Positions 9,740 to 18,578 of a stretch of 64,000 nucleotides of DNA are shown here, piece by piece. The first letter of the stretch is position 1. Each line of letters begins with the position of its first letter. This DNA is from Caldisphaera lagunensis DSM 15908. Lineage in GTDB: Archaea; Thermoproteota; Thermoprotei_A; Sulfolobales; Acidilobaceae. The stretch spans positions 744,001-808,000 of the forward strand of contig NC_019791.1 in NCBI RefSeq assembly GCF_000317795.1, read 5' to 3'. The notes under the pieces were generated by a model that saw nothing but the letters and a program-made list of their open reading frames with translations, made no database searches and was not told the origin of the DNA. Made by a program: the position numbers and the translations under genes.

Positions 9740-9825
9740 TGCGGGGGGTGGGATTTGAACCCACGCAGGCCTACGCCAACGGGTCTTGAGCCCGTCCCCT
9801 TTAGGCCAGGCTCGGGCACCCCCGC
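9740..9825 (-). tRNA. tRNA-Leu (anticodon CAA)
   Basis: Read on the minus strand, the gene begins GCGGGGGTGCCCGAGCC and ends GGTTCAAATCCCACCCCC-GC. The acceptor stem pairs perfectly (GCGGGGG / CCCCCGC), the anticodon stem is ACGGG/CCCGT with loop CTCAAGA giving CAA, and a long variable arm makes it class II, as expected for leucine. The T-loop is TTCAAAT and the discriminator is A. No CCA is encoded and no intron is seen. Position 9740 is the discriminator base. A run of five T follows on the transcribed strand. Confidence 0.95.
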
Positions 9826-15410: not shown

Positions 15411-16613
15411 TTATTCATTTACTTTATCATTTTTGTCTATTTCTTTGAAGAAAATATAATAAAACAATGGATCTAAAAATGAAATTAATGCTGCAGAAGA
15501 AAATACAAATATATAGGCTCCAATTTGTAGCAAGATTGATCCTAATAAAGAAGAAACCCCATAAGGTAATCTCCTTGCTACACCAGTTATGCTACTACCT
15601 CTTGACCTTTCATCTGGGGAATATAATTCCATGCTTATGTTTTGCCTAATTGGCAATGCTGCTTGATATGATGCTGTCCTTAAAATGTATATTAAACTTG
15701 CTATAAAAAGTGAATGAATTAGTGGGATAATAGCTAAAGGTAAAGAACCTAAAGTCCTTAATATAAATATCCCTTTTATTGATCCAAGGTTTCTTTCTAT
15801 TTTACCTGAAAATATCATTACAAAAACCGTTGCTAAATATGAAAAATCATATATTATAGAAATTATATAATCTGTAGCCCCTATATCTTTAAAATATATT
15901 GGCAGTAAAGGTAATATCATTCCTAATCCTAGACTTCCAAAAAGGCCGGTTATGGCAATCTTACTAATATTTTTAGCTGATTTTCTTGGGATAAAACCTT
16001 TGTTTCCGCTTTTCTGAATTTTATCTGGAGTTTCTTTTATTGGTATAATTAAGAAAATTGATATTGTAGATAAAACTATGGCAGTTTCAAATAAGATCAT
16101 ATAATAACTTTTAGGAAAGGTATTTATAATTAATGATGAAAATATTCCTCCAAGTAGAGCCATGATTATTGCTGTTATTGTTAAATAAGAATAAATGTAA
16201 GTCCTTTCTTTTCTATTTGTTCTGCTTGCTACCATAGCTGTTTGTAGAGGTGCTACAGGTCCTCCACCTGCACCGCCTCCCATAGGACTTAATGATAATC
16301 CAAATAACGATGAAATAAGGGCTATTATTATGTTATGAGTTGAAATAAGTATTATATACGCAATTATGGGTAACATTGAAATTATAATTAAAGTCTTTTT
16401 TCTACTAAATACATCCCCTAAATAACCACTTATTAAGACTAAAATGCTACTGCTTATTGTTGAAATTAATGAATAAAGGCCGACAAGCTCAACACTAAAA
16501 CCTATGTATCTTAAATAAAGTGGTAAAATAAATGCTATATATCCGAAACTAAAGCTTCTCATTGCCCTTATGGATCCTAGTAAATAAATATCTTTTTTAT
16601 ATTCCGAACCCAT
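15411..16613 (-). CDS. MFS transporter, 12 transmembrane segments
   Basis: The 400-residue protein has 12 predicted spans in two halves. The loop after span 2 carries YLGDVFSRKKTLII, the MFS motif A, and a glycine-rich GGGAGGGPVAP lies in span 4. The second half has FSGKIERNLG and SPDERSRGSSITG. It acts in the membrane as a secondary transporter of unknown substrate. It is transcribed away from the mobile-element remnant at 16690 and not in an operon. Confidence 0.85.
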   Translation of the reverse strand: MGSEYKKDIYLLGSIRAMRSFSFGYIAFILPLYLRYIGFSVELVGLYSLISTISSSILVLISGYLGDVFSRKKTLIIISMLPIIAYIILISTHNIIIALISSLFGLSLSPMGGGAGGGPVAPLQTAMVASRTNRKERTYIYSYLTITAIIMALLGGIFSSLIINTFPKSYYMILFETAIVLSTISIFLIIPIKETPDKIQKSGNKGFIPRKSAKNISKIAITGLFGSLGLGMILPLLPIYFKDIGATDYIISIIYDFSYLATVFVMIFSGKIERNLGSIKGIFILRTLGSLPLAIIPLIHSLFIASLIYILRTASYQAALPIRQNISMELYSPDERSRGSSITGVARRLPYGVSSLLGSILLQIGAYIFVFSSAALISFLDPLFYYIFFKEIDKNDKVNE

Positions 16614-16689: not shown

Positions 16690-17015
16690 CTTCACTTTAA
16701 CTTGATGGGGGTTTAGGGGCGAAAGTCCCCTTCCATGAGGGATGAATAGCCCCCTTATAGAAATGTTTTTATGGTTATACTAAAACAATAAATATAAGGC
16801 TTCGGCTGAAAGTGCTGGGTCATACCCTAGGGACTGGGGATTAAGCATGTGGAAGGCAGACCCTCCGTAACTCCTCTTCCACACGGGATATAACGAAACG
16901 GTTCTGTTTGATGGAACCTCCGCTGTGGATGTAGGGAGATCGAGGTTGCTCTATGAACCAGGAAATCCCCATCGCGAGGTGGGGATGCCCATCTGAAAGT
17001 GCGGGTAGTTCACTG
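16690..17015 (+). ncRNA. orphan omega-RNA-like right end of a TnpB (IS605-type) element
   Basis: This segment lies in the gene-free interval 16614-17345 and is far more GC-rich and structured than its surroundings. An outer stem GGGGG (16707-16711) / CCCCC (16750-16754) encloses the hairpin GGGGCGAAAGTCCCC (16716-16730). A second hairpin ATCCCC...GGGGAT spans 16965-16986, and the 3' end is GCCC-ATCTGAAAGT-GCGGGT followed by TAGTTCACT (17006-17014), the right-end form of crenarchaeal IS605-type elements. A reading frame of about 40 codons ending at the TGA at 16993-16995 could be a TnpB C-terminal remnant. No TnpB gene exists nearby. Identification as omega-RNA is inference from these ends and structure. 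Confidence 0.55.
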
Positions 17016-17140
17016 TACTTAAGATACTTCTCTGATTATCTCTACTTAGTATAGTTCAATCCTGCATTAGAATAATTAATACAAGTTAAAGCTAAAAATA
17101 TTAAGTTTACTATTAAAAGGGAGAGAAAAATACAACTTAG

Positions 17141-17211: not shown

Positions 17212-17345
17212 TAATTAGATAAATAATTTTGATAGCATGTTAAGAATTTTAGATAGCAAATAGCTGATCAAATGATATGTCTCTTTGATACCAACATATA
17301 TTAATATTTTAATATTACTACTATAAATAGTAATTTGGTGAGACA

Positions 17346-18578
17346 TTGGAAAACTTCACAGAAATTGATAAAAAAAGTAAAATAAATAAATATCAATGGA
17401 TAGCCATAATCAGCGCATCAATAACAATGTTTATATGGGGATTTCTATTAGCTTTAGCCCCTATAGCAACTCAGTGGCCTTTTGTACCTCCAAGTGATTA
17501 TACCTATTTGCTGGTAGCAGCTCCTACTTCATTACTAATTGGTAACCTAGTTTTAGGCAGATATACAGATAAGTTTGGGAGGAAAAAACTTTTTATAATA
17601 GACATGATATTATTTGCAATATCAATACCTTTAATTTTGTTATCTAATAATGTTGTTGAATTAGGATTAGGAATAGGAATGGCAGAATTTTCCTTAGGAG
17701 GTGATGAAACAACTGTTTTAACATATCTATCTGAAATATCCCCAAAGAATCATAGAGGAAAAATCATTGTTGGTGTTACAAATATAGCCAACTTTGGAGC
17801 ATTAATAGCAGCTTTGCTTTCTATAGTGACAAGCTTTTCAATATACATACAAAGGCTTTCCTTTGGTATACTCTTAGCTTTATCAATACCAGTAATTGTT
17901 ATCACAAGAGCATTGATACCAGAATCTTTTAGATGGGAATACTATAAAAATGTTGTGAAAGAAACGAAGGTAGAGATAAGTAAAAGGGATTATACTATTA
18001 GACTATACTTTTTAGTATCTATGGCTATAACTATTGTTTTAACATATGCATTAATGGCATTAATTATCGGACCTTATCTTTTTCCAAGGCTTACATCATG
18101 GATAATATTTATTTATAATTTGGGAGAAACTATAGGAGGAATAATATTAATACCTTTTGTAGATTCATTTAGTAGAAAAATAATTGCCTTTATAGCATAT
18201 CTTGGAGGATCGTTCACTATGGCATTGTTTATACCTCAGTTTCTTTTTGCCAGATCAATAATTGCAATATTTATGGCATTGCTGTTTTTAAATGGGTTAT
18301 TTGGAGAACTTGGCTGGGCCTTTAGAGTAATATTTGAGCCAGAGCTTTTTCCAACAAACATAAGAGCAACTGGAATTGGTTTGGTAAGGGCTATAGCTTA
18401 TTCTCTATATGTAGGCTCAATATTTCTCACATCAGGATTTAGTGAATTCACTTATATATTTTACAATTTAGGATTATGGCTATTTGGTCTCTCTGGTGCA
18501 ACTCTATGGCTAAAGTATGGTATAGAAACTAAAAAGAAGTCTTTAGAGGACATCTCTGATATAATAAAAAATATATGA
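17346..18578 (+). CDS. MFS sugar-porter-like transporter
   Basis: The 410-residue protein has 12 predicted spans. Motif A is GRYTDKFGRKKLFI after span 2, the sugar-porter-type PESFRW occurs at the end of the first half, and E..PTNIRATGIG occurs before span 11, as in metabolite:H+ symporters. It starts at TTG with GGTGAG upstream. Substrate unknown; sugars or organic acids are typical. It is a single gene with a 14-bp direct repeat in its upstream region. Confidence 0.85.
   Translation: MENFTEIDKKSKINKYQWIAIISASITMFIWGFLLALAPIATQWPFVPPSDYTYLLVAAPTSLLIGNLVLGRYTDKFGRKKLFIIDMILFAISIPLILLSNNVVELGLGIGMAEFSLGGDETTVLTYLSEISPKNHRGKIIVGVTNIANFGALIAALLSIVTSFSIYIQRLSFGILLALSIPVIVITRALIPESFRWEYYKNVVKETKVEISKRDYTIRLYFLVSMAITIVLTYALMALIIGPYLFPRLTSWIIFIYNLGETIGGIILIPFVDSFSRKIIAFIAYLGGSFTMALFIPQFLFARSIIAIFMALLFLNGLFGELGWAFRVIFEPELFPTNIRATGIGLVRAIAYSLYVGSIFLTSGFSEFTYIFYNLGLWLFGLSGATLWLKYGIETKKKSLEDISDIIKNI

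Follow-up and report, generated by a model that had tools for sequence, protein, structure and literature searches.

The question raised by this locus is what a compact, GC-rich block of hairpins is doing in an AT-rich archaeal genome with no tnpB gene beside it. It lies in the 64,000-nucleotide stretch of the Caldisphaera lagunensis DSM 15908 genome analysed here (the window), and an earlier note had taken it for a well-preserved omega-RNA-like element that might be either a non-autonomous element mobilised in trans or a retained regulatory or guide RNA. Our comparisons identify it, with high probability, as a decayed SMN1-type non-autonomous copy derived from an ISC1733-like IS200/IS605 element, from which tnpA and tnpB have gone and in which the omega-RNA has been retained. 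The hairpins are where they had been described: GGGGG (16707-16711) pairs with CCCCC (16750-16754) around GGGGCGAAAGTCCCC, and ATCCCCATCGCGAGGTGGGGAT (16965-16986) is followed by GCCC...GGGT (16987-17006). The block is also richer in G+C than its surroundings, at 0.42-0.54 versus approximately 0.25-0.37 (about 30%) in 200-base windows. Since the true unit spans 16696-17013, the two groups of hairpins are the ends of one element, which runs flush from TTTAAC to TAGTTCAC, the latter occupying 17006-17013. The 1,546,846-bp genome holds nine near-full copies at different sites, the window copy included, and the others are 72-91% identical to it, so that the element is more than a chance arrangement. 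All nine start with TTTAAC, most end with TTCAC, and their flanks are unrelated and show no target duplication.

Two readings of the flanks were considered and rejected. The TTCAC at 16691-16695, immediately to the left of the window copy, is not a target repeat, as the flanks of the other copies are unrelated there, and a match to the flank at genome positions 612069-612125 is not a clean empty site, as it lies in a duplicated, decayed transporter gene. The duplicate covers genome positions 611780-612126 (L033:781-1126) and corresponds to the transporter gene at 15411-16613 of the window together with its upstream region; its similarity breaks off no more than a few bases from where the element is inserted. 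The features of the element are collected in the table.

Features of the element and its predicted RNA (positions in the window)
Feature	Position	Strand	Basis or remark
Whole non-autonomous element, SMN1 type, 318 bp	16696..17013	+	Ends of nine copies in this genome and of about 40 from elsewhere
TTTAA(C), target site and TAM, left junction (first 5-6 bases)	16696..16701	+	TTTAAC at the start of all nine copies in this genome
Branched left-end hairpin, subterminal structure where TnpA is expected to bind	16707..16754	+	Helices 1-3; binding inferred
BRE/TATA-like promoter AGAAATGTTTTTATG	16759..16773	+	Precedes tnpA in the autonomous element; conserved in copies
5' hairpin P1 of predicted RNA, specific to MITE branch	16798..16821	+	Helices 4-5; absent from autonomous omega-RNA
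Match to R1 covariance model (autonomous tnpB-3'-end half)	16823..16964	+	15.4 bits, E 0.22
Predicted omega-RNA stem 1	16825..16839	+	Helix 6; loop GGAC (16831-16834) = pseudoknot 5' half
Predicted omega-RNA stem 2, 5' arm	16846..16850	+	Helix 7; partner 16958-16962; 3/5 pairs left here
Predicted omega-RNA stem 3, inner stem enlarged	16852..16954	+	Helices 8-12; 12 pairs with two-sided changes
Right-end hairpin P4, ATCCCCATCGCGAGGTGGGGAT	16965..16986	+	Helix 13
Terminal right-end hairpin = predicted omega-RNA stem 4	16987..17006	+	Helix 14; 5/9 pairs left here
GTTC (pseudoknot 3' half) and TTCAC right-end motif	17008..17013	+	Guide would begin after it
Host flank that would serve as guide	17014..17033	+	Position only

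Relatives were searched for with a consensus of the copies in 214 genomes of the order and in plasmids and a virus. The family is present in 25 of these genomes, on two Sulfolobus islandicus plasmids (86.5% identity to the family consensus), one of them described as pARN4, and in Acidianus tailed spindle virus. Aligned members measure 292-353 bp; an exact TTTAA start was read in 36 of 50 copies and an exact TTCAC end likewise in 36 of 50. The viral copy (17239-17565 of the virus; L174:601-927) and that of pARN4 (L173) are near-perfect, and the virus and the plasmid are likely to have carried the element from genus to genus. In the annotation of the virus an ORF, gp28, lies antisense within the element; it is probably spurious.

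Neither a protein gene nor tnpB is present in the 318 bp, and there is no overlap with a tnpB 3' end. In intact elements elsewhere in the order, element positions 1-102 (left) and 260-318 (right) flank tnpA and tnpB, and the left end of the window copy is 74-84% identical to theirs. One of these (L080), 1733 bp long when both ends are counted, encodes an intact TnpA of 135 aa and TnpB of 412 aa; the TnpA belongs to the Y1 transposases (Pfam 8e-41) and is related to solved IS200/IS605 transposases, the best being 2xm3, the structure of ISDra2 TnpA. The match of both ends to those of 1733-bp TnpA- and TnpB-bearing elements argues for an IS200/IS605-derived, non-autonomous element and supports the proposal of mobilisation in trans. 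Some autonomous elements and some MITEs of the Sulfolobaceae (L089, L093, L149, L161, L163) have an alternative right end in common, with ACGGTAGAyCCAAAATCA... instead of GGGCGGGGTAGTTCAC, and beside the TnpA/TnpB element of genome G048 lies a RadA-like gene with an apparent intein (L066:595-2133).

The host has a single element with matching ends, at approximately 1272845-1274459 on the reverse strand, in which TnpA and TnpB are both broken. The earlier statement that no tnpB is within reach is thus correct for the window, this element being about 510 kb away. In this element TnpA is missing 37 residues and lacks both the second HUH histidine (DHFR versus DHFH) and the catalytic-tyrosine region, and TnpB contains internal stops; two further TnpB loci (86909-87100 and 318556-318747) are related fragments of another TnpB type, both broken. 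Nothing found in this genome can therefore now move the element, and the window copy is a relic here because the only TnpA and the only matching TnpB are broken.

Judged by sequence, the interior of the element is a TnpB omega-RNA scaffold, consisting of stem 1 with its pseudoknot, stems 2-4 and a terminal UUCAC, so that its earlier description as omega-RNA-like holds; because the element has no tnpB gene, we speak of a MITE-borne omega-RNA homologue rather than of a TnpB locus. The fold obtained from 41 copies begins with P1, a short hairpin and a five-pair CCUGU/GCAGG stem around an 8-9-pair stem and a long inner stem, and continues with the two right-end hairpins and then UAGUUCAC. The 3' end of autonomous tnpB together with the right end adopts the same fold, P1 and the inner stem excepted. 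The stem-1 loop GGAC is common to MITEs and tnpB-encoded omega-RNAs, and its pseudoknot with the last bases of the element, GUUC, is paired in 152 of 164 cells; other TnpB families have GAGC/GCUC, GAAC/GUUC or GGGC/GCUC in this position. In stem 1 itself GGGG/CCC has given way to CCC/GGGG around an unaltered loop. Stems 2, 3 and 4 follow in order and the scaffold ends at the right edge, although in the window copy they are weakened.

The earlier note had named multiple conserved copies with compensatory changes as a result that would support it, and this is what was found: two-sided compensatory changes occur in 32 of 83 pairs among the 41 copies, in every helix of the RNA part except helices 5 and 7. 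Cells with two-sided changes number 89, compared with 42.3 (sd 5.9) in shuffles, of which none in 500 reached 89, a significance that is overstated because the copies are related and not independent. A control without that fault, in which the structure was slid along the alignment, gave 45-56% paired cells versus 88.7% for the structure in place; the structure itself was derived from the same 41-copy alignment. An independent test was provided by R1, a 100-nt covariance model of the autonomous tnpB 3' half only with the right end excluded, as it was built from autonomous elements and not from the MITE alignment. R1 gives full-length matches to the interior in 25 MITE loci (best 38.6 bits, E 3.7e-7) and, when run blind on the whole host genome at E <= 1, found the broken parent and three MITEs only. 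On the window copy its match covers the full model length, lies in the right place and is the sole one in the window, but is weak when taken alone (15.4 bits). A second model, R2, from the MITE interior was left unused, as its automatic structure was poor. We had also considered that the interior might be unrelated DNA, as a BLAST comparison with the parent matches the ends only; comparing the structures and searching with R1 led us to reject this. The search against Rfam that had been proposed came out negative for the element, which matches no family at the gathering threshold; an 86-base tRNA match at 9740-9825 on the reverse strand was the sole Rfam match in the window.

The view that the block is little decayed was only partly right, and its good preservation is not supported. 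The window copy has kept 56 of its 66 RNA pairs compared with 65-66 in fresh copies elsewhere, and its RNA half folds no better than shuffled sequence (z -0.83, versus -4.89 for the fresh viral copy). Pair counts per copy indicate that the host copies decay independently of each other.

Across the family, conservation is 0.75-0.87 along the element, with the sole exception of alignment columns 81-100 (0.54). These columns are the spacer between the BRE/TATA motif and P1, variable in sequence and conserved in length, mostly 31-34 nt from the end of the BRE, so that some 26 nt separate P1 from the centre of the TATA box. This is the expected distance to an archaeal transcription start, and in L080 the ATG of tnpA lies at the same distance behind the same promoter. 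Such spacing suggests that the former tnpA promoter probably drives the omega-RNA, which deletion of the genes appears to have brought under its control. In three families the interior shows the same degree of conservation as the ends.

Shorter derivatives differ in what they have kept. In genome G008 one of 259 bp (L070) consists of the left end, a tnpB-type omega-RNA and the right end, and in genome G206 two of 253 and 262 bp (L176, L178) have P1 and a parent-like inner stem; these derivatives of differing make-up all retain the promoter and the whole omega-RNA. Others, L068, L073, L075 and L188 among them, are free of the scaffold: several decayed ones of 189-334 bp and two minimal left-end/right-end fusions in the host genome, L035 (1001408-1001487, about 80 bp) and L036 (1312526-1312585, about 62 bp), which retain the TTTAAC and TTCAC ends. 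As some derivatives show, a copy can exist without the omega-RNA.

TnpB is thought to prevent the loss of IS605 elements by cutting the empty donor site. Our working hypothesis is that, in a cell with an autonomous element, TnpA would excise the MITE and insert it as single-stranded DNA 3' of TTTAA, while the left-end promoter would give one RNA, starting near 16798 and running through TTCAC into the flank, the first 16-20 nt of which would be the guide. TnpB supplied in trans would load this RNA and cut the resealed empty site, TTTAA plus guide, and the element would be copied back from the sister chromosome. Transcription, TnpB loading and guiding in trans are inferred here from sequence, which suggests that the family borrows its relative's RNA-guided nuclease as well as its transposase. 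On balance we lean towards regarding SMN1-type elements as ‘guide-RNA-only’ transposons, which would parasitize TnpA for movement and TnpB for restoration after excision and in which selection would keep the omega-RNA under the captured tnpA promoter. The system looks alive in the Sulfolobaceae, with the window copy as its relic.

The same observations can be read otherwise. Many MITEs of insertion sequences retain their ends only, and were this an ordinary MITE, the ends alone would matter, as TnpA needs them, and the interior would be a neutral leftover of the tnpB tail shared by common descent. The commonness of such ends-only MITEs, the scaffold-free derivatives of 62-205 bp and the relatedness of the copies favour this account; conservation of the interior to the level of the ends, two-sided changes in all helices of the RNA part but 5 and 7, a stem 1 exchanged strand for strand around the same loop, the maintained pseudoknot to the right end and the retention of the scaffold by derivatives of differing make-up argue against it, and we consider it unlikely. 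Less probable still is a decoy role, in which the MITE RNA would bind TnpB without productive cutting and so protect the host or inhibit the parent transposon: the enlarged stem 3 and the extra hairpin P1, both confined to the MITE branch, speak for it, but all parts of a working guide are retained, the pseudoknot and UUCAC included.

That the host has kept the element as a regulatory or guide RNA of its own, the other possibility raised earlier, seems to us very improbable. Nine copies with recognizable structure and a promoter-like motif could be read in this way, but no intact matching TnpA or TnpB remains in this genome, given the stops in TnpB, the histidine, tyrosine region and 37 aa missing from TnpA and the different type of the other two, fragmentary TnpB loci, and the copies decay independently. 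Nor is there a second target for the guide of the window copy: a search of the host genome for 17014-17033 with TTTAA at up to two mismatches returned the element's own edge only, and at three mismatches two sites versus one match of a reversed control pattern.

If the guide-RNA-only reading is true, an element that has shed all its proteins and retained a promoter and a structured, covarying guide RNA would be evidence from nature that a guide RNA pays for its own retention, and MITEs could turn a nuclease already present in the cell on new sites. Sulfolobus, with working SMN1, ISC1733 and TnpB genetics, makes the idea directly testable.

PATE-type palindromic derivatives and REP/REPIN elements are likewise non-autonomous, use a TnpA-like (Y1) transposase and keep ends only, whereas the MITE described here retains a complete guide-RNA scaffold. 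A fixed left target, a fixed right cleavage motif, subterminal hairpins and the lack of target duplication place the element in IS200/IS605; about 320 bp long, multicopy, without a protein gene and with ends common to a 1733-bp TnpA-bearing element, it resembles SMN1. According to Berkner and Lipps (2007), as cited in PMC3718332, SMN1 is a MITE of 320 bp that the ISC1733 transposase mobilises; its movement has been reported in S. islandicus (PMC3718332), and SMN2 is known from pMGB1/SMV1 (PMC3839810). As far as these citing accounts go, the likeness extends to size, non-autonomy, a 1733-bp partner IS, the same archaeal order and the lack of an ORF, and we filed the element as an SMN1-type MITE of ISC1733 because of its size, partner and target site, an assignment made from the published description of SMN1. 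Unlike SMN1 and SMN2, the copies here lie outside the Sulfolobaceae, are older and have no working partner. The SMN1-type MITE is thus already described, and the omega-RNA interior is the new part: PMC3718332 and PMC3839810 describe no RNA, and no report of one in SMN1 was found in the literature searched, most subscription papers being outside its scope. The omega-RNA of ISDra2 comprises stems 1-4 and a pseudoknot (PMC10097598), and S. islandicus TnpB7, an IS605 TnpB, has TTTAA as TAM and insertion site and TTCAC as right-end motif, its guide beginning after UUCAC (PMC11043419). The predicted MITE scaffold shares stems 1-4, the pseudoknot and a scaffold end at the transposon edge with these RNAs, and TAM and right-end motif with TnpB7; it differs from both in lying outside a tnpB gene, in its own tnpA-derived promoter, in its extra 5' hairpin and in its larger stem 3.
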